The notes beneath the pieces were generated by a model. It saw only the letters and a program-made list of their open reading frames with translations, searched no databases and was not told where the DNA came from. DNA of 64,000 nt from Bryoerythrophyllum caledonicum. Lineage: Eukaryota > Streptophyta > Bryopsida > Pottiales > Pottiaceae. The stretch spans positions 5,659,519-5,723,518 of the forward strand of contig OZ020521.1 in assembly GCA_963971425.1 (NCBI GenBank), given 5' to 3'. Shown here one piece after another: positions 35,850 to 60,465 of this stretch (position 1 is its first letter; the number at the start of each line of letters is the position of its first letter). The position numbers were made by a program, and so were the translations under genes.

Positions 35850-36802
35850 TTAACCCCTAAGGTACAATGACAGTTTTACACCAAAAACACTTCAAAATTG
35901 GTGGATTCTAGTGCAATGAACAAAGAAGGAAACAAAAAAATTGACTTCTAGTTTTGACCATAGGATCTCAATTAAGACTTATTTAGTAACATACTCAAAA
36001 AAATTCATAAACTTTGACAGCACGGATTGAAAGATTATAGTGTTTGAAGTCAAGCACATGGTTCATTTTCTTTCCTGCGTTCACTGGATCAGCAGACTTT
36101 GACTTCACTTGGTGTCAAATTTTTGAACTACACAAGGTCTAAATCCATTACCATCTTGTTAAGCATGATGTTAGTTCCTTATACACCAATTTTTGGAGGT
36201 AGAGGACGGGTGTAGCATATTCAAAACAATTGTGCAAGGAGTGGAGGTTCAAAATTTGCCAATTCACACTTTAATTTTTTGTGAACTTGTTATGTTTTAG
36301 ATTGGTAATCTGAATGGTCAATAAGAAGGTTTACGCCACATATTGTTGTGGGAAAAATAAAAAGTGAAAAATATAAAGACATCTAGGTTTTATGTGGAAG
36401 AGAAGAAGTTTTTTTGGTACCTTGCCCGACAATGAGTGACAATGTATGAAAATGTTTGACTTGGGTTGGTATGCTATTTTTCACTAAAGACAAGAGACTT
36501 TTTTTGACAATATGAAGGGAAAAAATATTAATTGCAAGTATTGAAAATCTCACATTCAATAGAGTGTCCTAGCAAAAGTTTTTGGAGGTGCCCGAGGTGC
36601 CCGCTCTCCCCATTTGAAATTCAAAACCCTATAACGTTTTCATCACATGCCCAATTTAGGAAAAAATTGTTTGTCCACTAAGGTCTTGGTAATGCCTTTC
36701 TATAGTAAAAATTTCAAAGAGAAATGTTGGAAATTGACACCGTAGGAACGTGACCAAACTTTCAAAGTGCCATTTCGTGACACTTGGTCCTTTAGTGGTT
36801 AA
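35850..36802 (+). repeat. TTAA-bounded dispersed repeat, best-preserved copy (953 bp)
   Basis: TTAA stands at both ends (35850-35853 and 36799-36802). The left end CCCCTAAGGTACAATGACA and the inverted right end CCACTAAAGGACCAAGTG are similar. TTAA flanks are the target of piggyBac-like transposases, while TTA would fit PIF/Harbinger, so class is open. No reading frame for a transposase exists, so the family is non-autonomous. At least five other copies or pieces lie in this window. Confidence 0.8.
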
Positions 36803-37309: not shown

Positions 37310-37985
37310 GCCTCACAAGCAATAGTGGATCCTTCTTTCTTTTGTACAGTTGTGATTGTGTGGATGCTCTTGTCAACAACATTGGGTGATTTTACATTGA
37401 CATTGGACAATTTCAAAAGTTATAAATCAGGAGCAAGGATGGTACTAGAGTTCAAAAATGGCCTCTATTATTTTTCTCTTTTGTAGTTAATAGCCACAAG
37501 AAATAATTATGCTCCAAGGATTTATGGATGGAGCGTAGCCAAGAAATCCATTAGAATTATGTTGCCCCATTGTTTGAAAGACATCAAAAAATATGCATTA
37601 TAAAAAGTACATGAATGTAGAATGAGCCCAAATGTATTTGATGAATTGATTTATACGTTGACACTCTATTTGCAGTCAAATATCATAAACCATGGTAGGC
37701 CTCAATTGGTGATTAGGAAAGTTGTTGTTGTAGTACTCTATAGGCTTGTACATGGTTCTTCTCTTGATCATATTGTTGATCGTTTCAAAGTTGGTGGATC
37801 CACCAATTAAAAGTATGTAGACATAGTTTGTAACATCCTCTCGAACAAGAACAAATTGTTTAGTGGATGCATTAGCATATCCAGAGGTGCACACTCGCAA
37901 GACATTATTGATGATTTCCACAGAATCATAGAGTTGCCAAACAAGACCATATTTATTATATTGGGAGATTTTTAGGACTTGGAAA
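37310..37985 (+). pseudogene. PIF/Harbinger transposase fragment
   Basis: The frame at 37622-37810 reads FDELIYTLTLYLQSN, then RKVVVVVLYRLVHGSSLDHI and VDRFKVGGSTN, the usual region before the nuclease in PIF/Harbinger transposases. After a TAA it continues YVDIVCNILS and DIIDDFHRIIELPN, matching the step before the GAIDGTHI box, which is not present. All three catalytic acidic residues are absent, so this is an inactive N-terminal scrap. Such an enzyme would be the expected driver of the TAA/TTA MITEs in this window. Confidence 0.72.
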
Positions 37986-39032
37986 GGTATTCTACTGCCC
38001 AAAACAACACCAAACAACCAAAATTTCACATACAAAAAATTGCTACATGTTCAAAATACACATTTAGGGTTTCAAACGTGAGCATTTTACTTCTCCAAAC
38101 CGGCCATAACCCAACCTCAGCTTCTACAAGCTTCAAACCGCTCAAACTTCCTAAGTTGCTTCACATCTCTAACCTTATCTCTCAAACTTCTACCTCCTCC
38201 ACACACACCCACACACATTGACACAAGAAAGAATGAGGGAGTGAAGGTGTCGACCCTCATCTCCCTCCAAACCCTAGCCGTCATGACCGTAAGTCGAGTT
38301 TTCATCCGCTATAGTCTATATCGAACAACACTTGCATCTACTTCTATCGGATTCAAAAATACTACCATACTCCCTATAGTTACCGCGGCACTAATTCTTC
38401 AGTTAACATTATCCCCCTTTTGATCTACACATACCCTTGGAACACGCAATTAAGCAATTATGCACTTGGCCAAGTGCGCTTATTGGCGCTCAATAACAAC
38501 AAGATTTTGAGTGGAAATGCCTTTTGGAAGGAAAAAAAAATCCGACAATCCCTATTTTATTTTTGCTATATTTTTGTGACAATTTCATTGAATATTGGTT
38601 TCTCAATGTGTACATAAGTAAATAATTTTCACCATTTTGGTAAGATTATGCATAATATATGATTACGATATTTCATTTTTATTGCATTGACAATATTACA
38701 TTGACCATGTACTTACAAGAAACTATTCATATATAATTTATTGCATGAAATAAATTTTATATGAATTTAAATAAATTTTAGTGTCGTGCTACAAATACAA
38801 TTTGTAGGAGATGTAATGATAAAGCACGCAATACAATGATGAAGTGTGAGGTTTAGAACTCTATGTTTTTCATATATATAAAACCATACATGATATAACT
38901 ATTGAATACTACAAAGATCATATACTACAATCAAACAAACCGTCTTTAAAGCAAATATACCAATCACACTGTACTAGTCACCTAAACATCATGTATGCTT
39001 AGCTACGGTATGACCTCAGAGTCTACATCATC
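37986..39032. other. No gene recognised
   Basis: A pyrimidine- and CA-rich stretch (38090-38222) and AT-rich sequence follow. Short frames show no recognisable domain. Part of it may be the 3' flank of the minus-strand gene that ends at 39033. Confidence 0.4.
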
Positions 39033-40232
39033 CTATGGCGATATTACTCCCGTAGCGTGTTCCATGGCAATATTTACCATTTCAGCCAACTCCTCTTCTT
39101 GCACCGGACTATCTTCAAGACTGACTGATGTAGACTGTTCATATCTGTAGCTGCGAGGGTCGCCGTGCCGCGTGTGCCTTACGCCATCTGCATCATAATA
39201 GAAGCCATCCCTAAATGTCATCAGTGCAGTGAAGGTCTCCCGAAATTTAGCAACATCTTCCGGTTCGCTTTGTCTTGAAATAGATGGCAATATTGGTCCA
39301 GTGCCACCTCCAATACCTTCAGCGCTCCCATATGTCGCAGATCCAAGCTCTGATGGAGCAGACCCCAAAGACTGTCCACCCCTACTCAACTCCAAAAAAA
39401 ACATGAGAGAATCGGTCGTACATTGCTCTGATTTTGATAGGTGAGAAATGGATATGTTCATCCCATCTGTTGGTGCCTCTAAAGGAACATCCAGTACCCT
39501 GGTATCATCCCCCATTCCAACAGGTGTCTCATGTACACAAACTCCCAGATGCAGCGGCGGCGTTGTTAGAACCACGTCTCTCCTAGGTGCTTTTCCATCT
39601 TCACCTTCGTCTTCCCCTTCTTCTGCTTCAGTGCTTCGCTGCGAGTCGAGCGAGCGACTGTCAGGCGTGGATTCGTCCGTCCCATATTCAAGTGGCAATC
39701 TTTCGTTCAAATGGGTGTAGAAATCCACATCATCGTCACCTTCCGTTCGTAAAGGAATCGCATCTTCGGTAGCATCCATACTAGTGGGAGCATTGTCCGT
39801 TCCATCGATGTTGTTAGACATCAACAAATGCCCTTGGAAGTTGTTGGACAACTCACCGTACAAGAACAAAATTTTCTCGCTGTAATCGTCAATGACAATG
39901 ATCTCGGATCCTTGGAAATCCGAGTGTAGTATAGTCGGAATCGCTGTCGATATGTTATATACCACCAAACCCCAACCCTGAGGCAAGTACAAACCCACCA
40001 GCCTTGATAACTCAGATGGAGATCTCTCGAGAGCATCAATAGCAGAAGGCTCTTGTGCTTCACCACGGTTATCATCAAATAAAAGAGGAAGTGGACGGCG
40101 GCCAGTAATAAAGTTCGCCTCAACAGACAATCCAACTGGGTGTTGGAGACAAATAATGATATCGCCTATTGGTTCAACTGCTTGTTGTAAACGCCCTCCC
40201 TCTATAAAGTTCAGAGGATGATCAACCGAGGT
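39033..40232 (-). CDS. C-terminal part of the same large protein, after an in-frame TAG
   Basis: The phase is identical to that of 40233-43040, and 399 codons are open beyond the TAG. The part just after the stop (TSVDHPLNFIEGGRL, GLSVEANFITGRRPLPLLF) continues the domain. SPSELSRLVGLYLPQGWGLV, VYNISTAIPTILHSDFQG and SEIIVIDDYSEKILFLYGEL fit the order of the C-terminal half of N6/N4 DNA methyltransferases (KPxxLlxxLI, VLDPFxGSGTT, GxEI...Y), though the FxGxG glycines are not kept. An acidic, low-complexity tail follows. One C-to-T change from CAG explains the TAG. Either the gene is newly broken or the TAG is read through. Most tracks would show this as a separate gene starting at a TTG codon, which I think is wrong. 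Confidence 0.5.
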   Translation of the reverse strand, partial: TSVDHPLNFIEGGRLQQAVEPIGDIIICLQHPVGLSVEANFITGRRPLPLLFDDNRGEAQEPSAIDALERSPSELSRLVGLYLPQGWGLVVYNISTAIPTILHSDFQGSEIIVIDDYSEKILFLYGELSNNFQGHLLMSNNIDGTDNAPTSMDATEDAIPLRTEGDDDVDFYTHLNERLPLEYGTDESTPDSRSLDSQRSTEAEEGEDEGEDGKAPRRDVVLTTPPLHLGVCVHETPVGMGDDTRVLDVPLEAPTDGMNISISHLSKSEQCTTDSLMFFLELSRGGQSLGSAPSELGSATYGSAEGIGGGTGPILPSISRQSEPEDVAKFRETFTALMTFRDGFYYDADGVRHTRHGDPRSYRYEQSTSVSLEDSPVQEEELAEMVNIAMEHATGVISP

Positions 40233-43040
40233 CTAACCAAACGCCCAACATCCACGCCGATGAGAGCAACCGTCCGGGAGCTTCAACTTCGTAATCAACT
40301 CTTCGGTGGCGAACACGGCTGGTGGTAATAGGAAAATGACGTTCCATCGTTCGACGGTCGTCATCCATAACGCCAGTTGTGCAAAGATTCTAGTGAATTG
40401 TTCATCTTCCCAATGACCGTTGCCATGCCGTCCACCGCCACGGCGACAATCAATAATCCACAGGTATGGCCGTGTCAACTCCACATACTCTGAACGAAAT
40501 AGTCCTCTTCTACACCAAATCAGAAGCGGATCCTGTGTGTCGTTCGGGCCTGGCCTCCGAACATGCAACTGCCACTCCCAATTGGCAGTGTTTGCCACTC
40601 CCTCACATACGGATGGTGCATTCTCGCCTTGCCCCTTTGCTGCAACAACCTGATAATGTACCTTGATGAAAGGAGGGACGAGGTCGCTTATGTCTTTCAG
40701 CTTCGACACCTTCTCTCGCTGCGGCGCACCCCATTTGGTTCTTGTTTTGCTATCCAATAGCTCGGCAAATTTGACAAGTTGTTCCTTGCCTCCTGGAAAA
40801 TACTTTCGTACAGATATACGAAAGAACTCTTCCATGGAATTCGGTGAAGATTCCTTGTTCTCTACCATCAACGAGCGAATGGTATTTATCACCGCTTCTC
40901 GTCTCATAATGCACTCACATACACCGGCAAGAATATGAGTCCTTGGATTTTGGTCTTTAATGCCGTTGAAGTAAAGTGTTTGACGAGGTCTACGTCCATC
41001 CTCGCCTACTGGCTTAGCTGTACAGGCCTTTGCAACCTCCAGATAGTACGAATCTGGAAGTCTCCCAAGCGGCATCAACCAATGCCCGGTCATCCGCTTC
41101 CGCCTCGGTCGAACATCCGCATTCGGATCCAAGTTCTTCATCAGTGCCAAAGCCTTCCACCTCTTCTCCTCATCCTTGTTGTAAAACATGAAGCCATTTT
41201 TGTAGTCCTTGCTGACTTGAAGGGCAGCTTCAAAGCACTCATTGTTGGGATTCCAAGCATGCTTGGTTAGGTCCTCCATGATCTTTGCCAGTGTGGACAT
41301 TGTAATCTTGTTGTCATCTCTGTGAGGCACTTTCCGCACGGCACTTGCTGCGCTCACTAGTGCGATAGCCCTGCGTTCATCGTCTGCCTGGACCGAGTTA
41401 TCAGGCCTGCCATACAGATCCCATATCTGTCGGAGCTTCACCAAATCCACATTCATGGTGGAAAGTTGTTTTCTTTGCCACTCCGCATTATTGACATGTA
41501 CTGACTTGTTAATGTAAAGTCGTCGATCATCGTACACAACAAAGGTAGCCTCCCGCTCCTCAAACGTCTTCTGATACTCAGACATAGGGATGTTACCGCT
41601 CATGCACTGCTCCTTTGCATACTTGCAAGCAGCTATGACGTGTTGCCCGTCCACAGGCTCCCAAATGATACGCTCTTGAAGCCAAGATAGTTGAGAGCCC
41701 GCAGTACCGTGTATAGAAGCACCCGCATGGCTTAAGAACATCCGTTCAAACTCTCGTGTTGCTCCAGTAACCGGGAAATCCACTCCCTCACGCTCAACCA
41801 TGCCAGTGTCGGTAGTGATATCGACGAGGTACTGGATTGGACGAAGTACCAATTTACTTACTCCGGTCATGTTCTGGGGATCTCGTAAGAAGTGATACAC
41901 TTCTGATTTCCTCTTCTCTGACAGTATCCGATGGTTTGTCTCCGGATTCACCACTTCGACGATGCGGTCAATGTGCGCCCTGAACACAATGTCGCCCCAT
42001 ATAGAACCTCTCGCAACTTCCTCTTTCGTAGGTACTGGAGCTTTCAAATGCCTAGAAGTTGGAACGGTTGCTGGAATGTCTGCCTCCTCCTCCGAATCTC
42101 CCAATGACTTATCAGAAAAGTTGTGCAAGTCGTCATCCATGGCCGACAAACTCACAGAGACACCCGCTGTAGATGTTGAGGATCTACGATGAGTTTCGGC
42201 TTGTCCAGCTATCGATTCACGGCCCCTGCCACGTGATGGCGATGCCCTGCCACGCAATGTCGAGGCCCTGCGATGCGATGTCTCTGAGCGGCCACGCGAT
42301 GTCTCTGAGCAGCCACGCGACATCTCTGAACGGCCACGCAATGTCTCCGAACGGCCACGCGACGGCCGTCCATCAGAATCTGGAGCTATGTTGCCTTCTT
42401 CACGTCGTGGCCGCTTAGATGGACGACCACTTGTTGGTGCACGAACACGCGATGGTGGCAGTTCAGTGGACGGCGGCCAATCCAACTGTATTGGCCTTGC
42501 TAACGCGCGATAAATGGGCTCGGTCTCCTCTGGATCCGCTGGTAGACTTACACGCTCAACACTTGCACGCTCTGGCTCCGTCCGCCGTAATGCCTCATAC
42601 ATGGTATGAGCACTCATAAATCTTCTAGCGCGTGCCTCATCCTCTTCAGATAACGCCAAACATGCCAACACATGCTCATGCCTAGCATTGCGCACCGCAA
42701 GATCCGTGCTGAGCCAAAACGTCTGTAACGAGGTTATGTTATTCACCCGCCTTGAATTTTGAAGGAAATCTGTAGGAACAGGTGCTAGAAGCAACTTCTT
42801 TGAAAGAGAAGTCTTTGATGCCGTTTGGCCAACCCTCGGTATGCAAACTACATAGACCATATCGTCCGGTCGAAGATTAATTGCTCGAAGTTCAGCGAAG
42901 GGCTTCCCCAATGCTGATGTGCGCATCCCTATTTGAAATGGATGTTCCATGAGCCACAGTACTGGCTTTGACGCCGCGTCTACTGCAATCCACCAACCAT
43001 ACTCCTCCCAGTGCCTTTCGATTGGAAGTGGTGGTGCCAT
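40233..43040 (-). CDS. Large uncharacterised protein, N-terminal part: ParB-like domain and start of a degenerate DNA-methyltransferase fold
   Basis: The frame opens at 43118, but ATG at 43038-43040 (ATGG context, MAPPLPIERHWEEYG) is the better start, since the preceding 26 codons look like intron or leader. In frame numbering, residues 225-302 are Arg/Ser-rich with 7-residue repeats SRGRSET and a likely nuclear signal (KRPRREE). Residues 421-575 resemble a ParB/sulfiredoxin-like domain: EPVDGQHVIAACKYA in place of the GHHR/GERR box, ATFVVYDD, then NNAEWQRKQLSTMNVDLVKL, like the NxQRxxLxPxExA step of ParB. Residues 885-895 (YLWIIDCRRGG) sit where a methyltransferase DPPY/DPPW box would fall, so catalysis is probably lost. 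TAG at 40235-40233 ends the frame, which continues in phase to 39033. Domain calls are inference; no family name is certain. Confidence 0.55.
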   Translation of the reverse strand: MAPPLPIERHWEEYGWWIAVDAASKPVLWLMEHPFQIGMRTSALGKPFAELRAINLRPDDMVYVVCIPRVGQTASKTSLSKKLLLAPVPTDFLQNSRRVNNITSLQTFWLSTDLAVRNARHEHVLACLALSEEDEARARRFMSAHTMYEALRRTEPERASVERVSLPADPEETEPIYRALARPIQLDWPPSTELPPSRVRAPTSGRPSKRPRREEGNIAPDSDGRPSRGRSETLRGRSEMSRGCSETSRGRSETSHRRASTLRGRASPSRGRGRESIAGQAETHRRSSTSTAGVSVSLSAMDDDLHNFSDKSLGDSEEEADIPATVPTSRHLKAPVPTKEEVARGSIWGDIVFRAHIDRIVEVVNPETNHRILSEKRKSEVYHFLRDPQNMTGVSKLVLRPIQYLVDITTDTGMVEREGVDFPVTGATREFERMFLSHAGASIHGTAGSQLSWLQERIIWEPVDGQHVIAACKYAKEQCMSGNIPMSEYQKTFEEREATFVVYDDRRLYINKSVHVNNAEWQRKQLSTMNVDLVKLRQIWDLYGRPDNSVQADDERRAIALVSAASAVRKVPHRDDNKITMSTLAKIMEDLTKHAWNPNNECFEAALQVSKDYKNGFMFYNKDEEKRWKALALMKNLDPNADVRPRRKRMTGHWLMPLGRLPDSYYLEVAKACTAKPVGEDGRRPRQTLYFNGIKDQNPRTHILAGVCECIMRREAVINTIRSLMVENKESSPNSMEEFFRISVRKYFPGGKEQLVKFAELLDSKTRTKWGAPQREKVSKLKDISDLVPPFIKVHYQVVAAKGQGENAPSVCEGVANTANWEWQLHVRRPGPNDTQDPLLIWCRRGLFRSEYVELTRPYLWIIDCRRGGGRHGNGHWEDEQFTRIFAQLALWMTTVERWNVIFLLPPAVFATEELITKLKLPDGCSHRRGCWAFG
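42205..42370. repeat. 21-bp coding minisatellite, about 6 units
   Basis: The plus-strand unit GGCCACGCGATGTCTCTGAGC occurs in about six variants. Read on the minus strand it encodes the 7-residue repeat SRGRSET. The period is a multiple of three, so unit number can change without breaking the frame. Confidence 0.85.
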
Positions 43041-43118
43041 GATGTCACATACAAGAAACCTGATCATAATCACAATACATATACAATTGTCAATACGGTG
43101 TATGTTCATATACATCAA

Positions 43119-44120
43119 TGCTTACACCTTCTAAGAAAAATACACAAGAGCATCATATTACAACTCAAATGTGGCTTCCTTGACTTGTAAAGATAAACCC
43201 CTAAATTTTATGACTCTACAAAATGTCAATTTTTAAAATCATTAGTCCCATTTTTTTTCTTTCCTACTATGTGAAAACACACCTAAAAAGTTCAAATCCG
43301 AAGTCGAAATTCCAAAAAAATTATTATTTGGGAAGTTATAAACTCACTGTTAAGTGAATCTGCGGAAATTACAGTTTCAACCATAAAAGATGAAAATCGT
43401 AGCACGGATGAAAACAGAGGATGACGAATCACAACTGATGGAAAATCACAGTGGATGAAAAGGGAAAAAATCAACGAATGAAATGCCAATAAAGGGATGA
43501 AAAACAGTGGATGAAAACTTGCGGATGAAATGCCAAAAAGTGGCTTCCGCTCTAAATCTGAAGTTAATATGTAATTAAAGAATTACGGACTTGGCTAATT
43601 TCAGCAAATGAACCACAAAAATATGCCCGGTTTTTTTTACAAATTTTTTACAGATTTTTTTGAATTTTATTCAAATTTTTCATATTTTCAAATTGGAATG
43701 GAAAGTAGGCTTCATAATCTTCATTTCTTTGTTTGGACTCAAAATCACAAAATATCATGTTAATGACCCAAATTCAGATTTAGAGCTGGAGCTAGAATCT
43801 ACGAAATCGGAAGAAATTCTGCAAATCTTCACTATGGTGATTTCAGCGACCTTTGAGGATTTTTAGAAAAAAGAGAAAAAATAAAAAAAATCCGAAAAAA
43901 ATTGGGATGATACCTCCTGATTCAATCTACAAGGGAAAAAAAATTCAAGTTATTTTGAATTGTTGAAAATTACTTATAGGCATTTCAGTTTCGTCCAAAT
44001 CTATGGAAAAAATACTCTTTTTTTTTCTTTTCTTTTTTTTCTTTTTTTTACCCTTACAGCGATACAAGGTTTGACCGGCTATACGATTGGATCAGGGTTT
44101 GACCGGATATATGACTAAAT
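43119..44120. other. No gene recognised; includes GGATGAAAA-type repeats
   Basis: 43385-43540 contains irregular repeats of GGATGAAAA with variable spacing. 43620-44060 is A/T-rich with long poly(T) tracts. The short frame at 43660-43866 shows no recognisable domain. The region may hold the promoter and leader of the large minus-strand gene. Confidence 0.45.
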
Positions 44121-44389
44121 AATGGGTATCAACGAACTCTGGAAGGGGTATCAACCAAGAGCAACGGCACGATTAAGAGCCCCCTGCGTACGCACGGGCC
44201 GTAAGAGAGTTGAGCCCGCTCAACATTGCCGACGCCAAACCCTAGCCCGCCCACACTGCCAACGCCGCTCCGAAATCCACTACGCCGCTCTGACCCTAGC
44301 TACTTTCAAACTACTGACTTCGACACGCACAACACATGGAGGAGAGAGAAGGAGAGAGATGAGGGTGAAGTGAGGAGAGAGGACCAGTA

Positions 44390-44700
44390 GATTAGTTAGA
44401 ACGTTTGCAAGTTGGTGATGTTGCTTGCGAGTTGGTGATGTAGCTTGTAGGTTTTTTGCACGTTGTTCACTCATCTACTCTCAGGTTGTTCACGCGGCTT
44501 GGAGCGTTACTCACTCACTCACTCACAGGTTGTTCACGCGTCTTGGAGCATTACTCACTCACTCACAGGTTGTACACTCGCACCTTGTTATCTAGGTGAA
44601 ACCCTAAAATACCCTAGGAGAAACCCTAAGACACCCTAGATGAAAACCTAAGACACACTAGTCGAAAGCTAAGGACACCCCTGCGTATGCACCCCCCTGA
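44390..44700. repeat. Local tandem repeats and telomere-like CCCTAA words
   Basis: GTTGGTGATGT(T/A)GCTTG is repeated at 44412 and 44433. CAGGTTGTTCACGCG plus CTTGGAGC(G/A)TTACTCACTC is repeated at 44482, 44525 and partly 44565. Then GAAACCCTAAAATACCCTAG and variants occur three times at 44596-44680. These words resemble the plant telomere repeat but are irregular and surrounded by unrelated sequence. Confidence 0.65.
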
Positions 44701-45289
44701 GGTGAGAAGTCCAGCCATGAAAATGGCGGCGCCGCCAAAATTAGGGTTTCAAAAATTAGGGTTTCCATATCGCCGACAAGGTTTAGATAATTAGGGTTTT
44801 CAAATGTAGTGTCTCATGTTTTTCAACTAAGTACTGACCCAACCTTAAACCCTAAACTGAAGTTCATAGGATAAAACGCAAACAAAATTAAAGTATAAGT
44901 AGTTTAGAATGGTTGTGCACCTGAGTAGTTTAGAAAGGACGTGCTACTTTCCGCTTTGAACCTGCAATCATATATAAACGAGTGAACAACATAATAGGAT
45001 GAAGTAGAAATCTTGACCATCTAAAAACATCTAAAAACATGATATGTGGAGCTCACCTTTGGATGATCGTAAAAAAGAGACTCACTATTATGAAATGGCT
45101 GCCTTATATGGATTTCTAAACTTTGTGGTTAACTACTCTACTTTTATACATATACCAAATATTACCTTCTTTTAAGAATATTACCTTGTGGTCAATCACT
45201 CTACTATTATACATATAAAGAATATTATTTTATGATCAAACAATCTACTTTTATACATATAAATATTACCGTCTTTTTCTTACCAAAAA
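44701..45289. other. No gene recognised
   Basis: AT-rich with small duplications (ATATTACCTT, ACTCTACT(A/T)TTATACATA near 45130-45260). No supported frame. Confidence 0.4.
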
Positions 45290-46480
45290 AAAATTGTTTA
45301 GTGTAAAAAGTACATTTTAACCCAAGTCGAACATTTTTAGACATTTTGAGGAAGGGGAAAAAAAACTTGTTTTCTACATAAAAACTAGAGATCTTCAAAG
45401 TCTTTGCTATTATTTTTTTTTACCACAATATGTGGTAAAAACCTTAGTATCAACCGTTTGGATTATCAAAGTATTCCATATTTGTGTTAAAAAAAAAGTT
45501 AAAACGTGAATTGGTCATTTTTCATTTGTTTTCAATTAGACATCAAAATTAGATGCTTTGCCACTTTTTATTTGTGGTAGTTTTGGGGTGTTTCTTGATG
45601 GAAAAAGGCTTGGAAATTTAGGGGTTTGTTCCTTGAGGATACATACGTTCATTGAAATTTTAATATGAAAATGTCCTTCATAACAACTTTTTGGAGGTAT
45701 TTAAATTATTGTATTTGGGTTGATGGTTTGAAAGTTAGTTCATACCTAATATTGGAACTTACAACTTTTGCTATTACTCTCTATTGCCATTAAGATTTTC
45801 CATACCCATAAAGGAAAAACAAGACTTTTAGAATGGACTAGAAAATAATAATTATATTTTGTGTGAATTTCTAATTGCATATAGATCTAAATCTGAGTCA
45901 AATGTTTTCAGGAAAATGATTGGAAAAAACCATACCTTCTATAGTAAAAAAAGCTTATAAATCTTCAAAGCATTCCCTTCTACTGTTTTTGATATCTATT
46001 AGTGAGAAATTTCTTCTTAACTGTTACAATTGTCATTCTAGAACATATTAACAATTTCAAAGTAATATATCACGATGTAGCAAATAATGAATCTGTATTC
46101 ATTGTACATTTTTCTTGTAATATGCTTTTATTTTCTACCTCTTAAACTTGGTTATAAGGAACTAACAAAACTATTAACATAACAATAGAATATTTAGACT
46201 TTCATTAGTGCAAAAATGAAATACAAAGTGAAGTCAAATTCGATTCTATACCTTTAAAGTAGGGATGAGAATGAATCTTTTCCTCAACTTCAAACCTTAT
46301 AATCTTTTAAGCTGTACGGCTAACATTTATGTCCTTTTGATAATTATATTGATTAATGGATCATTGTTGAGATGTAATAATTAGGACATCAAATAAATGT
46401 TGTTGACTTCTAATTTACACTTTGGAGTAGGATCAACAATTAGTACCTATATTTAATATAAAATTCTAAATGAATTTTAG
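45290..46480 (-). repeat. Diverged copy of the TTAA-bounded repeat family
   Basis: Blocks resembling AGTCGAACATTTTTAGACAT, CTAGAGATCTTCAAAG, ACCTTAGTATCAACCGTTTGG, TTGGTTATAAGGAACTAACA and CCTTATAATCTTTTAAGC occur in the order of the reversed family. A piece of about 400 bp (45550-45950) has no counterpart. It is more diverged than the other copies. The ends are not resolved. Confidence 0.45.
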
Positions 46481-46884
46481 GAGTTGATATACAAAGATTT
46501 TAGGTTGTTTTCATCATGTGTTATATAATGTCACTAATGTGTTTGTTATAGTGAGGTCGTAAAGATTTTGGAACAAAAAGAAGAGCATAAGTTTTGGCAA
46601 CGAAGACTGATTGGTGATATCGTCATATAGAGCGGCGTTGAACTCCGGTACCACGCCCTCTGATACTCACAATTAAAATCTAGGTGAGGAATATCTTCTT
46701 ATACCGATATGATGGCTTTTTGGATGTATCATATGTATCGTGCTTTACATTGGATCACTTGAAATTGCAATTTTGTTCAATTAGATGTGCTTGTGAATCT
46801 TATAAATGATCAATCATTATATGTGAGAGTATAAGTATATGTCTATTAGTGAGTACTCTATTGGATGAATGATGCTTTTGAATT

Positions 46885-46888
<4 letters not shown>

Positions 46889-46935
<47 letters not shown>
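46889..46935. repeat. (AT)n microsatellite
   Basis: An uninterrupted run of AT dinucleotides of about 46 bp lies 36 bp upstream of the first ATG of the following transposase-like gene. Confidence 0.95.
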
Positions 46936-46937
<2 letters not shown>

Positions 46938-46971
46938 CCACTATTGTGTCTATATTTGTCAAATAGTATCA

Positions 46972-48352
46972 ATGGAAAGCGGAACATCCCAGATTCCTTT
47001 AGAACCTCCAAACATTCACAGATCAAATATCCTTCCTAATAGTTCAGTGGGGGCTCGGTTGATACGAGCAGTACGGGCGCGCCAAATTCAAGAGAGATCG
47101 GTTGGAATAGGTGATTTTGAAGCGGGAAGGACTGTAGAATTGCTCTCCAAAATAGGCATTATCGTGGGTTTGGCAAAAAGAGAGTATGCCTTTAAAAGTG
47201 GAATGGTATTGCATGGACGTAGAATGTTTCCATCTGAGGTGGCAGTGCGTATAATTTGGGTTGACGATGCATCACATTGGACATGAGAAGTTGTAGAAGA
47301 ACGGCTTGGTTCATGTATGGACCTGATCATTCGTTGGAACCGGTCATTGCTTCGTGACTTGGCCACAACACCTAATTTTCCAAATGCCCATAGTGAAGAT
47401 AGATCTCATATTTCACCTATACGGACAATGGCCCTAGGATTTGATGTTCAAGGGCGATCTATCACCCCAGAATTGAATGAAAGATCTATGTGGAGTAGCC
47501 AAGCTTCAAACCCCGTTGATGAGAGTTCACCATTTTCTCAATGCACCCTCTCTAACATTTGAGATTTGCCCCATGTGGAGGGATTTGCTCACGTTAGAAC
47601 AACGCGCCGACCTTATTCTATGCAGAATAGAAGAAGGATAGTTTCAAGCGAGTCAAATGTGACAGGAGCTGCAGCAAGTAAGGTATCTTTGGCAAGCGTG
47701 GAAAGGGCAATAGCACAGGGAGGATGCAAGCAAAATTGTTTGAGGGACATTCCATCTAGGCATATTTTAGACATGCAATATAATGCTTGGGCACCAGAGT
47801 ATTCAATCCGAAGTACATGGACATTGGATAAGACAAATGTTGGTTTCTTTTCATACACGAACGGAAGGATTTCATCGGGATATATTTGAGACGAAGTTAG
47901 ATGGCAGGCTTGTTTGCAATGCTTGCTACGCTCTTAAGGTTGGTTATTCGCAACGGCGTTTTAAGGAGTTCAAGAAATATTGTTTAATATACGGTAGAGT
48001 GACAGCAATCCACGGTAACACACTATCGAATCCGATTAGAGAGAGTACTAGAATATGTGATGCAGAGGCTTACTTCAAATCATTTATGGAAGAAGTTGGA
48101 TGTCCTCAACCTCATCGTTCTATTTGCCGTAAGGATGACAACACAGTGGTGCCTCTTATTCTCCTTCCAATGAATACAATAAAATTTGACCTATTCAATT
48201 ACGTGAATGAAGAGGTGAAGAGAATATGCAATGGAGAAACCATTTCAATTAGCTTGTTCCATAGGATGGGGCGTTTCAGATATCCCCATGTCCAAGTTCC
48301 ACCATTCTCAAGGTTCTCAAAGTGTCATCATTGTTAGGAATATAAATGTGCT
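46972..48352 (+). pseudogene. DUF7869-type transposase-like protein, N-terminal part
   Basis: The first frame (46972-47880) is broken by two TGA codons (47284 and 47563). Past them it includes GCKQNCLRDIPSRHILDMQY, a Cys-containing step typical of this family's N-terminal region. A frame shift near 47880 leads to LDGRLVCNACYALKVGYSQR at 47897 onward. At 48335 a TAG interrupts SKCHHC-stop-EYKCAMEGTT, a probable zinc-binding SKCxxC motif just before the conserved core. All three stops are one C-to-T change from CGA or CAG. The next 604 codons are open. Together the gene would encode about 1,060 residues. The start at 46972 follows an AT microsatellite and could be preceded by another exon. Confidence 0.65.
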
Positions 48353-50167
48353 ATGGAGGGAACAACCAATGCCGATGCAAGGATTAGGATCAAAGAATTG
48401 TTTATGTTGCATCTACGCATCCAAATGGAGGAATGTAGGCATTATTGGATATTCAAGAGGTCGTGTTATATCCACCCTGAGTTGTACATGTGCATCATTG
48501 TGGATGGCATGGACCAAAATACAACCATGGTACCAAGAATGCGTCAAACCGTAAAGAACATTGAACACCGGTTTGTGAAGACCCATCTATGCGGGGCTCT
48601 AGTACGTGGAATCGGTTTGTATTGCGACGTATGGTTTGGAGCTCACCACAAACATGACAGCAACCAGGTCGTGAGCACATTGTTGTATGTGATTGGAGAC
48701 GTGTTGCGGAGGAAGGGATTTTTGCCACCAACATTGCGCAACCAAGCAGATAATTGCACCCGTGAGAATAAAAACATCTATATGTTTGCTCTATGCGCAT
48801 CCTTGGTGGGATTGGGATTTTTTCAAGAGATGGAACTCTCTTTCGTTATAGTAGGCCATGCACATGAAGATATTGATCAACGTTTTAGTTGTATATCAAG
48901 TACTTTGAAGCGATCGGACGTGGAATCCTTAAAAGAAATGCTTAACCTTATAGAACGGGGAACGTCTTCTACGGAGGCATTTATCACCGCACGGCTGTTA
49001 GAGAATGTGTGGGATTGCAAACAGTTCATAACACCCCACCTACAAACATGTCTGGATTCATTGGTTGGCATAACATTTCCACACCACATACGATTCTATA
49101 TAGATGATAGAAATGGGACCCACAAGGTTCGAGTGCAACACAAACATTACTACAATGATGCTTGGGGACCAGAGATAGGGACAAAGACTTTGAGGTCGCT
49201 GCCAAGTAGAGATGAGCAACCAGCGTTCGCAAATGTGTTTGCAGCGGACGAACGGGAGCTAAAAGCGTTGGATGACTTCTTTGCCTATAAACAGAGGTGC
49301 ATTGAAAGATTGCAACATGTGAAAATGAACCGTGATGCTAAAGTGGAGGCCGAGAAATTGAAACTATATTTAGCCAAATTTTCACACAAAGACCGTAGCA
49401 ACGAGCATCATTCTTTACCATTTTGGCCTTCAGGTGTATCCAATACGGCATCTGCGGAACGTGTTTCATTGGATGAAGTCAACGGCCCAGGCGACGAAAA
49501 TCGCGAAGTAACCGTTGTGGACCAAATTGTCGCTATAGATCCAAATGCAGACTCTCGAGGATATTTTGGTCCGCGTAAAGGAAGACCATCAAATCAAGCA
49601 GTGCGTAGGGCCCAACGAACGGAACGCAACCATGTTCAAGAACGAATCGAACAAGGAGCAGAGGATGAAGTTAATCACGACCCGTTTCCACCATTCAATC
49701 CACAATCAGATATTAATTGTGGACAATTTATAGCCATAAGTGTTGATAGAGCTGAGGTTGAAGGTGGTATACCATTCTATGTAGGGAAGGTGATTGAAGA
49801 TGGGAAAAATCAAAGAAGTCATAAGATGAAGGTTTGTTGGTATTGGCCCATCATGCAAAGAGAAAATGTTGACAGAACAGGGTCCACCGCACAACAATAT
49901 GCAAATTGCATGGATGCATTCTGGGAGCCCACGTATGAGAGCCATAGTTGGGTAGAGAAAGAGGCATGCATCTTTTCGTGGATAGACGAACCTGAAAGGA
50001 CAGTGGCTGGCGCTTTCCGGAGGAGAAAGAGAAATATACTCGGATCGCAAGTTGAAAGCAAGATTCGGATTTTTCAGTCAGCTAAGGCTCACATACTAGA
50101 ATATATTGCAATGCAAACCGAAGCAATTGACGATGGACGGTTGCAAGTAGCCTTGAATGATATGTAG
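48353..50167 (+). CDS. DUF7869-type transposase-like core with C-terminal reader-like module
   Basis: This 604-residue open frame holds the conserved core. CIIVDGMDQNTTMVP (Asp 51 and 54), HDSNQVVSTLLYVIGDVLRR, QADNCTRENKNIYMFALCA (Asp 133) and FVIVGHAHEDIDQRFSCIS (His 169-Asp 175) give spaced acidic motifs consistent with an RNase H-like DDE/D nuclease. Similar DADNC...GHxHEDID proteins are abundant, apparently mobile, in several plants and animals under the label DUF7869; that assignment is from memory of motifs. The C-terminal part (about residues 458-545: FIAISVDRAEVEGGIPFYVG, KVCWYWPIMQ, CMDAFWEP) looks like a small chromatin- or peptide-reader barrel of the BAH/Tudor kind. The frame itself is intact, but the N-terminal half of the gene is not, so the element is probably dead. 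I did not find its terminal repeats. Confidence 0.72.
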   Translation: MEGTTNADARIRIKELFMLHLRIQMEECRHYWIFKRSCYIHPELYMCIIVDGMDQNTTMVPRMRQTVKNIEHRFVKTHLCGALVRGIGLYCDVWFGAHHKHDSNQVVSTLLYVIGDVLRRKGFLPPTLRNQADNCTRENKNIYMFALCASLVGLGFFQEMELSFVIVGHAHEDIDQRFSCISSTLKRSDVESLKEMLNLIERGTSSTEAFITARLLENVWDCKQFITPHLQTCLDSLVGITFPHHIRFYIDDRNGTHKVRVQHKHYYNDAWGPEIGTKTLRSLPSRDEQPAFANVFAADERELKALDDFFAYKQRCIERLQHVKMNRDAKVEAEKLKLYLAKFSHKDRSNEHHSLPFWPSGVSNTASAERVSLDEVNGPGDENREVTVVDQIVAIDPNADSRGYFGPRKGRPSNQAVRRAQRTERNHVQERIEQGAEDEVNHDPFPPFNPQSDINCGQFIAISVDRAEVEGGIPFYVGKVIEDGKNQRSHKMKVCWYWPIMQRENVDRTGSTAQQYANCMDAFWEPTYESHSWVEKEACIFSWIDEPERTVAGAFRRRKRNILGSQVESKIRIFQSAKAHILEYIAMQTEAIDDGRLQVALNDM

Positions 50168-50980
50168 TAAAGGAGGATACTAAAATGAGTGTATGGTGTA
50201 TGGTGATTGGCATGTAGGGTATATGCAAGAGTAGTCTACCACAAAGGCTATACAAGGGGTTTGGTAACAATTGACCAATAAATCCGAAAGGTTTTTCCCA
50301 TTGTTTGATTACATCACCAAGTACAAGAATATATGCAATATGTTGATTTTCTTCTTCTTATGTATCATGTTCCATGTGTAATATATTCAAATCAATTGCC
50401 ATTCATTGCGCAGTGTTTTAGTTTACATAATTGCGTATTCTGTATAGTTACTTGACAAGCTTCTTTCCAAAAACATACTACTGAGTATGAAACAAATATT
50501 TATCAAATTCTAACCAAGTTCCATATCAAATTTGTCAAAAATGCCAAAAAAAACTTATTGAATTAACATTTTTGGTTATATTGAAAATTGTTCTTATGTT
50601 TTTTGTTTTTTTTTAATCCCTAAAACCATGTGTTAGTCTAATTAATAAGAGGGAAGGTTCAAATGAACACTAAGTAACAAAAAGAGACTATGCTTGCTTT
50701 GAGCTTTGCATATTATACTTCACTTATCCGGTAGGCATCCAATCTTCTTTCTCCAAAACTTTGTGAAGTCAACCATTACCGGTTCGGCATTCTACTAGTC
50801 CACATTTTTCATTGCCGTTGGCTTGCTCTTGCTCTTGCTCTTGCTCCAGATCCTAGTCCATATCCAAGTCATGGTCTTAGTCTCGATCTCGGGCTTAGTC
50901 TTGATACTGGTCCATCTCCACTTTCAATCCATCCCCCCGTCATTTAAGCTAGCTCCATGCTTGTCTCTGGAGATAAAAAC
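50168..50980. other. No gene recognised; flank of the copia insertion
   Basis: AT-rich sequence with a short (TTGCTC)n run at 50822-50846. It ends with AAAAC (50976-50980), the left target duplication of the copia element. The last 250 bases may be part of the minus-strand gypsy element seen on the other side. Confidence 0.5.
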
Positions 50981-51329: not shown

Positions 51330-52259
51330 TTATTCGCTTGCTAACTCCGTGAGGGTCCGCATGCCAGCTGCTTTGATCAGCTTGCGGTGTTGATGTGCGG
51401 GTAGAGCCTTCGTAAGTACGTCCGCAATATTTTCTGCTGAAGCAATCTTCTTTGCTTGAATTTGCCGTGTTTCGATTAGATCTTGTGTGTAACTGAATAG
51501 ATGAGGGCTGATATGCTTGACACGGTCGGCCTTAATAAATCCAGAAGAAACCTGTTCAATACAAGCTGCATTGTCTTCAAATAAAGTGATCGGCTCCTCC
51601 TGGTGTGAAATACCGCTCATCTTGAAGATGGTGTAGTGCATTGTGCGGATCCAAACCGCTTCGCGAGATGCTTCGTGAAATGCGACTAACTCCGCGTGGT
51701 TGGTTGATGTGGCCGTGATCGTCTGTTTGGTTGATCGCCAGGATATCGGCGCTCCGTTCTTGATGAATACGTAGCCTGTCTGAGATTTGCCCGTGGCTGG
51801 ATCCGTCTTGAATCCGGCGTCGGCATAGCCGGTGATGGCGCTGGACTTGGTTTTGTGGAAGTGGAGGCCAAGGTCTGTCGTCCCTCGCAGATACCGTAGG
51901 AGATGCTTAACTCCTCGCCAGTGTCTATCGGTTGGCTTTTGATTGTGGCGAGCAAGCACGCTGACGGCGAAGGAGATATCGGGTCTGGTGTTGGTCGCCA
52001 AATAGAGTAGCGCTCCAACAACTGCTAAATACTTGGGCCGATCCACTTCCTCTTCCTCCTCTTCTGCTGGCCGATAAGGGTCCTCGTCGGTGCGACTTTT
52101 CCCGATCATTGGGGCGGACAGCGCGTTGGCGTCGGCCATGTTGAAGAGCAGCAAAAGCTTCTTCACGTAGGTCTGCTGATGTAGAAGGATGCTTCCATCT
52201 GATTTTGGGTTGATCGGCCCACATATGTCACCGTGGAGCCGATGCAGCGGGGCGGGCAT
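51330..52259 (-). CDS. pol: Copia pol remainder: integrase start joined to RT end, and RNase H
   Basis: In phase with the preceding frame, the 309 residues begin MPAPLHRLHGDICGPINP, the N-terminal end of the integrase core. They jump directly to KSDGSILLHQQTYVKKLL, which belongs near the end of reverse transcriptase. So roughly 600 residues including the integrase DDE core and the RT YVDD box are missing, without frame change. RNase H is complete: YADAGF, NHAELVAFHEA, LFEDNAAC and ADVLTKALP carry its four acidic residues. The stop is at 51330-51332, about 60 bp before the polypurine tract. An independent start at 52259 is unlikely to be used; this is the downstream part of one polyprotein. 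Confidence 0.93.
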   Translation of the reverse strand: MPAPLHRLHGDICGPINPKSDGSILLHQQTYVKKLLLLFNMADANALSAPMIGKSRTDEDPYRPAEEEEEEVDRPKYLAVVGALLYLATNTRPDISFAVSVLARHNQKPTDRHWRGVKHLLRYLRGTTDLGLHFHKTKSSAITGYADAGFKTDPATGKSQTGYVFIKNGAPISWRSTKQTITATSTNHAELVAFHEASREAVWIRTMHYTIFKMSGISHQEEPITLFEDNAACIEQVSSGFIKADRVKHISPHLFSYTQDLIETRQIQAKKIASAENIADVLTKALPAHQHRKLIKAAGMRTLTELASE

Positions 52260-53954
52260 TTATGTCGGGAGCGTCCATCGCGACGGCTGGCGGATGAGCT
52301 TGCCTTGTATACACGCCGCGCACTCCTCTACGCGCTCCGCGTCCCGTGTGCAGAGGTCGTGACCGACTAAGGTCGGGACCATTTTTCTCATCATGGTCGT
52401 CCCAGGGTGCCCCAGCCGGCGATGCCAAACATCAGCCTTCGTGCTGGTTGTCAAAAAGGACATCGGCACCCCTTTCAGGGGTAGGCATGGGGATCTACGT
52501 CCGCCATCCTCTTCCTCACTCTTACGAGCGGGGCTAGGTACAGCGCCAACAAGGGGCAGCTCGTACAGGCCGGTGGCTCCCGCGTGTGCGGTGGCAAGGA
52601 GTCTCTCGCCTTGCCGTAGCTCGAGGACCTCATCATCAATTCCTACCGCGGTAGAAACGTGGATTTGATTGGCCCGTAAATCCCGGTAGCTGATCAGACT
52701 CCGGGGGGCATCCGGGACATACATTGCCCTCTTGCAGGTGAGGGGGGCTCCCCCGGGCAAGACTATGTTTGCCCGGCCCTCGCGGAATTTAAAGGTCCGC
52801 TTGCCTGCGATGGTGATTATATCACAAGTTTGCCACGGCTCGTTCCTAGTTCTGAACTCAAAGAACGCCGGGTCTTGGAGAATGGTATGAGTGGACGCAC
52901 TGTCTAACAAAGCAACTCTCGCTTTGCTAGGTTGTGACCCAAACTGTACCATATAGTTTTCTGGGTCGACATCGTTTAGCGTAAGGGAGGGGGCATCGAG
53001 AGTATGGGTTTCTCTCTTTCCTTCCCTTAAGGACTTTAACTCTCTATACATGTCGACGATATATTGTGACGCTCGACAATCCTTAAGAAAGTGCCCTGGA
53101 CGACCACACTTGTGACATGACCCTCGCGATCCACTCCCTGATGTACTTGTCGACTTATCGGGTCGATGTGTGTACCTCGGGTTCTTGTCTGATTGCTGTT
53201 GATCACGACGTGGGGGGCGCCAATCGCCTCGGGATCGTCGCCTGGGAGCCTCCGCGCTCTGGGTTTCTCGCCTGGGGTTTGTCGACTTCGACGGCGTCGT
53301 CGAGTTGGGCTGCTTGCGGCTCTCCTTTACTTCGCTTGTGTGAACCTCCTTCGCAGGTCGCGCCTCGGCGTTTTTAAGGAGCATCTGCTGCTGCTTTTCA
53401 GCTAAAAGCAAATATGACATAAGCTCCGAATGTTGTGTAAATCGCATGTTACGGTACTGCTGAGCTAGAATAGCACATGCGGGGGGAAAAGTTGAGAGGG
53501 TCTTATCGATTAAGTCGACGTCGGTAACCGTGTCGCCGCAGAGGCGAAGCTGCGCGACGATGCGGTGTAGTTCGGAGTTGAACGCGATGAAATTCGGAAA
53601 ATCCAGTACGCGCAGACTGAGCCAGTCGCTGCGGGCTTGGGGGAGGAAAATCGTTTCCTCATGCTTGAAACGCGCTTCCAATGCTGACCAGAGTACCGCC
53701 GGATCTTCAACCTGTATGTATTGTTGACGCAGGGACGCATCGATGTGTCGCCGGATGATGAGAAGCGTCTGCCACTTGTAGGTGGCTGGTATCTCCGCCT
53801 CGGGCTCTCCCTCCAGCGTGACGATCAGCTCCTCCGCGCTCAAGTAGGTCTTCATATCGACGTACCAATTAAGGTAATTCGAGCCGTCTGCCTCAAGTGG
53901 GTCGAAGAAAAGTGGGGTGGTTCGTGTCTCTCTTGGTTTTATCACCGTCGCCAT
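52260..53954 (-). CDS. gag-pol: Copia Gag, protease and integrase zinc finger
   Basis: The frame of 564 residues starts MATVIKPRETRTTPLFFDPL, after the leader next to the 5' LTR. Residues 1-200 are capsid-like (LNWYVDMKTYL, WSALEARF). The CCHC knuckle CHKCGRPGHFLKDC is at 280-293. The protease active site reads LLDSASTH (about 350-356), where DSG or DTG is usual; the Gly-to-Ala change probably harms activity. The GAG-pre-integrase finger WHRRLGHPG...CAACIQGK is at 510-551. A TAA at 52262-52260 stops the frame, but the same phase continues for 309 codons immediately after it. Unlike other stops here it is TAA, possibly from AAA (Lys). Confidence 0.95.
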   Translation of the reverse strand: MATVIKPRETRTTPLFFDPLEADGSNYLNWYVDMKTYLSAEELIVTLEGEPEAEIPATYKWQTLLIIRRHIDASLRQQYIQVEDPAVLWSALEARFKHEETIFLPQARSDWLSLRVLDFPNFIAFNSELHRIVAQLRLCGDTVTDVDLIDKTLSTFPPACAILAQQYRNMRFTQHSELMSYLLLAEKQQQMLLKNAEARPAKEVHTSEVKESRKQPNSTTPSKSTNPRRETQSAEAPRRRSRGDWRPPRRDQQQSDKNPRYTHRPDKSTSTSGSGSRGSCHKCGRPGHFLKDCRASQYIVDMYRELKSLREGKRETHTLDAPSLTLNDVDPENYMVQFGSQPSKARVALLDSASTHTILQDPAFFEFRTRNEPWQTCDIITIAGKRTFKFREGRANIVLPGGAPLTCKRAMYVPDAPRSLISYRDLRANQIHVSTAVGIDDEVLELRQGERLLATAHAGATGLYELPLVGAVPSPARKSEEEDGGRRSPCLPLKGVPMSFLTTSTKADVWHRRLGHPGTTMMRKMVPTLVGHDLCTRDAERVEECAACIQGKLIRQPSRWTLPT

Positions 53955-54145
53955 CGCGAGGTGGTGTGTGCCTATGGCTCTAGTGGGGGATTCCTAAAAA
54001 GCTGACGTCACTCCGGCCGCTCAATCTCTTGGTAATAAAGTCTTCTGTCTAAACAACTGTAGTGCAGATTCGGAGTGTGTCAGAAAAATGAACAGTGAAA
54101 CGAATTGTGCTTTCTAGGAATATGAGCTATACAGTGCTGATAACG

Positions 54146-58879: not shown

Positions 58880-60334
58880 TTAAGAAATAGGATGGCTAAG
58901 TAGACCGCTCTCAAGAATGCGCTTGATCTCGTTAAAACTAAGACTTGGAGCATGTATAAATACATCAATATCGGAGTGTAATCCACAGATAACAATGAAG
59001 ATGTAATACAAGTGCTTACAATTTGTCCACTGACCTCGCTTACCTAGAGATTTCTTCATCATTTCTTGAAAGAATGGACAGGAACAAGTGGGGAACTGTC
59101 CAACAGTGATGGAATATTGTTCGATTTTTGGAGGAGTTCCGGAGTCAAAAGTAACAATGCATCCAATAGCTGGAATAGGTATCATGGTCAATCGGCGGAG
59201 ACTACCTCTGACCAAAATGGCGGATGCACAAACATTAGTCTGTTTCGTTGAAGGTGCTTTTACATTCCTACGAATTTTTTTTCCAAACCTGAGGAAGGGA
59301 TGATCATCAGGGAATTCCGGAAGAGTATATCCGGACAAATCGACAGGAATCCGCTGACCTTCGAATAATCAACGAGGCGATATTGCAGCACGTGGCTGAA
59401 GTTGAAATCCTGTAGTTTGTAGTGCAAGAATCTCAGAGGTAGTTAGGTTAGTACCCATCTTCACTGGCCAAACCTCTGGCACAGCTGGTTTTGACACCAC
59501 CCACTTGCGTCTGGTACCCTTGACGCACCTTTCAATATCATCGTTGCAGAAGAAGAATTGCATACGCTCTTCCCGGTTCTTCTGGTAATTGTGCATCATT
59601 CCAGTATATGTGGGAGCCGCAGTACTCCTCCCATCCTGGACAATCTTTGCAATACACTTTCTCTTTGTGATTGCCTGTTGGGCAAAACATGCCTTGGCAG
59701 AAGCCTTGGATAATCTTGCTATGTGCCATTCAGTCTCATCACATGCAGTTTCTTGGACGGCATTCACATGTATCCTTGGAGGTGGAACAACAATTGTCTC
59801 AACCTCTTTATGTGCGGCATGTTGAACTTCATCTGTCTCCACATGTACACCAACTCCTGGAATAGCGTCCTCAAGGTGCCTTGATGATCCTTGCCTAGTT
59901 TGAACGCGTGGACGAGAGAAATTGATCTTGTCGGGTCTATGGGAGTCATTATCGCAACCAGGAGGAAGATCAATCTTCCGTTTCAGAGAACCAAATACTT
60001 CCTCCCCTTCAAGATGTGGTTCCCGAGTACAAAAAGCAGAAGCTCCAAGTAGTTTGGCCATTGCAGCATGTAGTGCTTTCGGATCACCTGACCGATGAGT
60101 TGTACGTTGAGCCACTCGTAAGAGGAGTTCTTCCTTGCCAGGACCGGTGCCTGATCGATTGCCATTCAAGTATTGGTAATATGCCACAACTTGCATGAAG
60201 GCTCGAACATAATCATCCACAGTGGCGACGTAAAGGTCATTGCCACGATTTCCAGATTGTTGCAACCACTTATTATGCACTGTCTCCGCAAGATTACAAG
60301 ATGGCATTTCAGCCAATTCGGAATCTGTGAGGGG
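58880..60334 (-). CDS. MULE transposase, exon 2 with C-terminal SWIM zinc finger (one internal TGA)
   Basis: After the splice join the frame runs through HNKWLQQSGNRGNDLYVATV, typical of the region after the MULE core. A low-complexity linker leads to TGA at 59371-59369 (AAISPR-stop-LFEGQRIPVDLSGYT). The same phase stays open to 58880. The C-terminal part has the SWIM finger CSCPFFQEMM...CKHLYY (CxCx...CxH, at about 59010-59090), which binds DNA or protein in FAR1-like and MULE transposases. A CGA-to-TGA change, or TGG-to-TGA, explains the stop. With that single defect the gene is close to intact, at about 1,200 residues. Mobile relatives or a host-adopted gene are both possible. Confidence 0.8.
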
Positions 60335-60465
60335 CTGTCCAAAAACAAGAACCATCACACAAAATATAAGAGTGGAACAAAAGAATGGACTACTAATCTA
60401 GACATGTAGATTATACGAATACAGTATTAACGTTGAAAGTAGGAGAAATCAGGATAAGAGTATAC
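60335..60465 (-). other. 131-bp intron of the MULE gene
   Basis: The minus-strand donor is GTATAC and the acceptor is TTTTTGGACAG, phase 0. Splicing joins RQWDGFMQL to PLTDSELAEMPSCNLAETVH. Reading through the intron instead gives a stop after 13 codons. Confidence 0.85.

Follow-up and report, generated by a model that had tools for sequence, protein, structure and literature searches.

A transposon of the Bryopsida species Bryoerythrophyllum caledonicum carries a gene whose product, judging from structure prediction, very probably combines a ParB-type domain with a DNA-methyltransferase fold. The gene lies on the minus strand (39033–43040, 1,335 residues) of a 64,000-nucleotide stretch of assembly GCA_963971425.1 (contig OZ020521.1, positions 5,659,519 to 5,723,518 of the forward strand), which we call the window and by which features are numbered. 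The catalytic motifs expected of such a methyltransferase are missing, and both domain regions are under purifying selection. On balance, the best overall explanation is that the protein is an accessory factor that would stay bound to its own transposon, either keeping the element expressible or helping its transposase.

The gene and its relatives

The frame is broken by one TAG (40233–40235), with stop-free stretches of 962 and 399 codons on either side. When the 64-kb window was simulated 30 times with an order-2 Markov model, no stop-free stretch exceeded 251 codons, so the frame is far beyond chance. A search of about 5.8 billion proteins returned 8 relatives of 1,205–1,488 amino acids (identity 32–63% over the alignment), none of which carries a precomputed Pfam domain; 3 further relatives from a later search are all partial. 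The strongly conserved stretches of the nine-member protein alignment include WEPVDGQH, FVVYDD, WIIDCRRGGG and SPSELSRLV...GWGLV...VIDD. An earlier note on this DNA had described an otherwise open minus-strand frame of about 1,335 codons with a single TAG, which translation bore out, and the motifs that it quoted are present and fall in conserved stretches of this alignment. Since uninterrupted stop-to-stop frames of 1,344–1,377 codons are found in 11 of the 20 genomic copies fetched, the TAG represents decay of the window copy. A basic cluster spotted by eye, RPSKRPRR (42402–42425, minus strand), is likely to act as a nuclear localisation signal; clusters of the RP.K type occur in 21 of 24 sequences, the cluster of P0008 has diverged (RTSNRGRN), and the partial sequences P0009 and P0011 show none.

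A DNA transposon with two genes

The gene sits inside a multi-copy class II DNA transposon with terminal inverted repeats (TIRs) and 4-bp target-site duplications. Copy C4 measures 12,316 bp and has a perfect 31-bp TIR at both ends; copy L263, of a second subfamily, measures 13,607 bp and has the same 31-bp TIR with a single mismatch in one of the two repeats. Of the 16 copies with both ends readable, 13 are flanked by identical stretches of at least 4 bp, the others being L251, L257 and L260, of which L257 and L260 have an altered end repeat; L255, whose right end was not found, stands outside this count. The abrupt 3′ boundary is common, within a few bases, to 17 of the 18 main-subfamily copies (38441 in the window), and L255 ends earlier. 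The other end was located from upstream stretches of 4 copies, and the left repeat is present in each of 13 further copies represented by short end pieces. The 4-bp duplication agrees with the Sola1 superfamily, a weak criterion, as duplications of this length are typical of Sola1 and also found in other superfamilies.

The window copy spans 38441–50594 and runs on the minus strand by its ParB-methyltransferase gene, with the gene-3′ end at 38441. It matches element positions 128–12316 of C4 at 90–94.6% identity by segment (blastn), is missing the element's first 127 bp, one terminal repeat among them, and has both genes broken. The remaining 31-bp repeat (38441–38471, plus strand) is identical to those of C4, and no partner was found at the other end with up to 6 errors allowed. 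A search for terminal repeats using the window alone found nothing because one end of this copy is missing. Inverted repeats at 36095–36192 and 46144–46241 were rejected as element ends, both arms matching other interspersed repeats in a self-comparison of the window. Just beyond the element's repeat, at 37440–37970 (plus strand), translation inspected by eye revealed a degenerate PIF/Harbinger-like transposase fragment; this convergent fragment was ruled out as the element's transposase, as it lies outside the TIR at 38441.

In the whole assembly (437 Mb, 894 contigs) there are at least 51 matches to the ParB-methyltransferase protein at 49 places, two copies being split in two; 51 is a lower bound, as 49 of 2,373 candidates were scored. 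All 935 query residues are spanned by 31 matches, the window included, at 82–100% identity, and 934 residues by 3 matches at 57%; the remainder are partial. Twenty of the 51 matches were fetched with wide flanks, and the window copy was examined within the window. The main-subfamily alignment holds 18 copies (17 fetched plus the window), and the second subfamily comprises L263, L264 and L265. The suggestion that this might be an odd transposon protein is thus upheld by the position of the gene within a TIR transposon with target-site duplications, and the count of genomic copies that had been proposed gave the numbers above. The genome had also been described as plant-type, in keeping with which TTTAGGG telomere arrays were found at 6 of the 13 contig ends inspected; another 4 consist of N, and 3 are without an array.

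The second gene of the element, divergent from the first, encodes a DUF7869 protein that is probably a DDE-type transposase. Its broken window copy lies at 46936–50164 (plus strand; tblastn matches 46936–47865 and 47813–50164), and Pfam PF25273 is matched at E 3.6e-46 in the window copy and 4.6e-51 in C4. C4 has two long stop-to-stop frames, of 1,363 codons for the ParB-methyltransferase protein and, divergent from it, 1,074 codons for DUF7869; the longest DUF7869-side frames in the other two main-subfamily copies with upstream DNA are 1,010 and 950 codons. L263 has a DUF7869 frame of 1,077 codons and an interrupted ParB-methyltransferase frame, which is uninterrupted in L264 and L265 (1,348 and 1,344 codons). 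By eye, the DUF7869 protein has a D-D-E spacing of 82 and about 39 residues, the first D standing just ahead of the Pfam match (L269:6336–9557, minus strand; window 46936–50164, plus strand). No PDB sequence matched the protein, and DUF7869 is unmentioned in the open-licence PubMed Central papers searched. Because PF25273 occurs in a TIR transposon with 4-bp duplications and shows a plausible D-D-E spacing, it is probably part of a transposase core, which suggests a role for this Pfam family of unknown function.

Two predicted folds

The C-terminal fold, at residues 825–1070 (39831–40568, minus strand), is predicted to be that of a beta-class DNA methyltransferase, with the permuted strand and helix order of that class seen in the domain model, Foldseek and VIA-align. 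The top 22 Foldseek rows for a model of the whole core are beta-class methyltransferases, none at E ≤ 1e-3. Catalysis in this class requires both a box of the form D/N/S-P-P-Y/F/W and the FxGxG loop that binds S-adenosylmethionine (SAM). Here, DCRR stands in place of DPPY (40440–40451, minus strand) and NISTAI in place of FxGSGT (within 39939–39974, minus strand). The box after the fourth strand reads DCRR in 22 and DCCR in 1 of the 23 readable sequences, none of which has a PP box of the DPPY type, so that the loss of the catalytic box noticed from the window extends to the family. The FxGxG loop is likewise absent from all 21 sequences read there (L256, P0009 and P0010 being outside the count). 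W..DC is retained in 23 of 23 readable sequences, and the acidic pair that ends the second strand of the SAM half (VIDD at about 39885–39895, minus strand) reads VIDD or IIDD in 20 of 21 and VIDN in L250. From these motifs, the domain is quite probably non-catalytic.

The ParB-type N-domain is placed at residues 345–524 (41469–42008, minus strand), where a second-look aligner found the ParB N-domain fold in the structure prediction. DGQH (41640–41651) is followed by I or V in all 23 readable sequences, the window protein reading DGQHIVAA. The ParB assignment rests on this aligner and on motif order, because the best 50 Foldseek matches to the core model included no ParB entry; for the same reason we hold the combination of both folds slightly less firmly than we otherwise would. 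Of the two assignments, that of the methyltransferase is much the stronger. The earlier note had placed a ParB-type domain ahead of a methyltransferase fold, and both were predicted in that order rather than as unrelated folds, the outcome that would have spoken against it; its interpretation is thereby supported. Among the structure matches from Foldseek, methyltransferases head the list, and ParB is absent among the best 50 of 285.

Several results weigh against assigning these folds. Foldseek returned 285 matches to the whole-core model at E ≤ 10 and none at E ≤ 1e-3, no ParB entry stood among the best 50, and the mean confidence of the model is low (pLDDT 54.6). The ParB nucleotide-binding box is GxHR or GERR, and its arginine is absent in 23 of 23 readable sequences, which makes CTP-dependent spreading as in bacterial ParB doubtful. 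Profile-profile comparison with phage ParB and methyltransferase sets gave nothing significant, and the highest of the 12 scores came from matching the methyltransferase profile with the reversed core, ahead of the real core. Of 40 column-shuffled controls, 3 reached the local ParB score and 36 the local methyltransferase score; for the two global scores the numbers were 37 and 26. No ParB or methyltransferase match was found in Pfam, PHROGs or PDB sequences; among nine family members scanned against Pfam at E ≤ 10 there was neither a ParB nor a methyltransferase family, and the scan listed six unrelated weak families. Homology therefore rests on structure, not on sequence. Phage ParB-methyltransferase fusions offered no usable bridge among the 120 IMG/VR matches listed in each of two pattern scans with motif filters, 3 motif-filter hits being judged spurious by eye. 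Pattern searches of viral and prokaryote contigs gave 20 and 45 stretches, of which tblastn confirmed none as a relative.

Selection and recent spread

Between the subfamilies (C4 versus L264), the ratio of nonsynonymous to synonymous substitution (dN/dS) is 0.30 for the whole protein. Its regions range from 0.19 (ParB) and 0.22 (methyltransferase-like) through 0.24 (N-terminal part), 0.29 (middle) and 0.41 (basic linker) to 0.53 (C-terminal tail). The DUF7869 protein gives 0.15 (C4 versus L263), and a 201-codon core 0.03; these between-subfamily values are rough, as synonymous divergence is about 0.9–1.5. Among recent copies, dN/dS was 0.12–0.34 in 12 pairs of 93–99.6% protein identity, drawn from 9 of the 20 fetched copies (main subfamily, frames of at least 1,349 codons). 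The ParB and methyltransferase-like regions are thus under purifying selection. Eight uninterrupted copies are 96.3–99.6% identical to the C4 protein, and the frames of L264 and L265 are 57% identical to it. By its sequences, the element lineage appears to have been recently active and spreading in this genome.

Candidate binding sites

Tandem repeats between the two genes (44461–44680; 40–44-bp units at 44461–44566 and 22-bp units at 44592–44680) are a candidate binding array. Of the 18 main-subfamily copies, 17 have intergenic repeats of 40–44 bp in 2.3–4.7 units; in the other, L267, the region is non-homologous. The 40–44-bp array was not seen in L263–L265 (3.6 kb searched). Two findings speak against a binding array: the units differ between subfamilies and may be ordinary promoter repeats, and a k-mer test for short noncoding motifs in the C4 element found none above shuffles. 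The second-subfamily element contains 11 copies of the telobox AAACCCTA, whereas none of 60 shuffles had more than 8. At L263:1487–1650, a 20-bp array built on the plant telobox AAACCCTA lies upstream of the ParB-methyltransferase gene.

Other features of the window

Interspersed repeats at 34.3–36.8 kb, about 78–90% alike by segment, recur in both orientations near 8.3–8.9, 12.8–13.3, 14.8–15.4, 25.9–27.3 and 32.2–33.0 kb. A retrotransposon integrase lies at 2524–3174 (plus strand), and a Copia-type gag/pre-integrase frame (52263–53993) with an adjoining frame at 51333–53993 (minus strand). Three consecutive long frames of 733, 342 and 162 codons occupy 58883–62628 (minus strand) with no Pfam match at E ≤ 0.01; by eye, the last shows a SWIM-finger-like C.C/C.H pattern.

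Proposed role and alternatives

Because both folds are kept and catalysis is apparently lost, DNA binding is the likely retained function. We propose that the protein would enter the nucleus via its basic cluster, that the ParB-type domain would tether it to the DNA of the element that encodes it, with the intergenic tandem repeats as a possible site, and that the methyltransferase-like domain would serve as a non-catalytic DNA clamp. The bound protein could then keep the element expressible or assist the transposase, working in the manner of the VANC anti-silencing proteins of Arabidopsis VANDAL elements with parts of bacterial type. By this analogy, we tentatively favour an element-binding, anti-silencing role over a helper of transposition and over an active enzyme.

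The protein might instead be a still-active N4-cytosine or N6-adenine DNA methyltransferase with an unusual DCRR site that marks its own transposon. The retained W..DC and VIDD could mean that some chemistry is kept, constraint on the methyltransferase-like domain is similar to that on the ParB region, and the published algal counterparts are predicted enzymes (PMC12477816). However, with neither PP box nor FxGxG loop in any sequence read, we regard this as improbable: to our knowledge, every catalytically active beta-class enzyme keeps both. In a direct role in transposition, the protein would bind the element ends and build the transpososome together with the DUF7869 transposase, much as the second proteins encoded by Spm or Harbinger elements act. 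Each of the two subfamilies has a copy with both genes, and their 31-bp TIRs differ by at most one mismatch. Many copies, however, have a broken ParB-methyltransferase frame, a picture that post-insertion decay would equally give, and we consider such a helper possible, if rather unlikely.

Two further explanations seem to us very improbable. One holds that the gene is a captured host gene, Pack-type cargo without function for the element. DNA transposons do capture genes, Pack-MULEs among them (PMC12477816), and flanks were examined in 20 of the 51 matches, which leaves room for a free-standing host copy. Yet the gene is found in both subfamilies, and dN/dS is 0.3 between them and below 0.35 among recent copies. 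The other, to which we give equally little credence, is that the fold matches are spurious and that this is a lineage-specific transposon protein unrelated to ParB or methyltransferases. The lack of family matches, the non-significant profile comparisons, the low model confidence and the Foldseek E values described above would all fit it; the permuted beta-class order and the methyltransferases heading the Foldseek list point instead to the predicted folds.

Relation to known systems

Proteins of this kind are already known from algal transposons. Sola1-1_Ec32, a 21.5-kb Ectocarpus transposon, encodes a protein of 1,104 amino acids that has ParB-like and N4C/N6A methyltransferase domains and whose gene runs opposite to that of the transposase; similar proteins, for which Iyer 2011 and Petroll 2025 are cited there, are said to be reported from green and red algal transposons, and it was proposed that such proteins bind the element that carries them and modify it (PMC12477816). 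The domain order and the place in a DNA transposon, opposite the transposase strand, are matched here. As far as a comparison by description goes, the present family differs in its DUF7869 partner, its whole elements of 12.3 and 13.6 kb and its at least 51 matches, and it lacks the DPPY and FxGxG motifs, whereas the Sola1-1_Ec32 protein is a predicted enzyme. Neither a catalytically degenerate form nor a plant-type host for such proteins was found in the open-licence PubMed Central papers searched.

Compared with the beta-class enzymes M.BceJIV, MboIIA, M1.HpyAVI, CcrM, PvuII and Adineta N4CMT, the fold here is without the DPPY-type box and the FxGxG loop and follows a ParB-type domain in a transposon-encoded protein. 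METTL14 and other non-catalytic MT-A70 proteins form heterodimers with an active partner, whereas among the long frames of C4 we saw no second methyltransferase gene. Unlike bacterial ParB, Noc and KorB, the protein has the arginine of the nucleotide-binding box replaced, and there is no partition context. The VANDALs are Mutator-like elements. Their VANC proteins are reported to bind noncoding regions of their own elements, with rapidly diverging tandem repeats as targets, and to induce loss of silent marks in Arabidopsis (PMC10398659). The present system likewise has an accessory gene in a DNA transposon of a plant, and its tandem repeats vary from one subfamily to the other. Anti-silencing is reported for VANC, whereas here we infer it. 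We know of no domains common to VANC and the ParB-methyltransferase protein.

The loss of the catalytic motifs, together with selection on both domains, suggests that the transposon needs DNA binding and not methylation. A bacterial-type ParB-methyltransferase may have been domesticated by the transposon into a dead, sequence-specific clamp that shields it from host silencing, independently of VANC, though we consider this a doubtful prospect at present. The uninterrupted copies make it testable whether a transposon uses a dead methyltransferase to escape silencing. If so, it would be a second, independent solution to the task of VANC, built from a pseudo-methyltransferase and a ParB fold.

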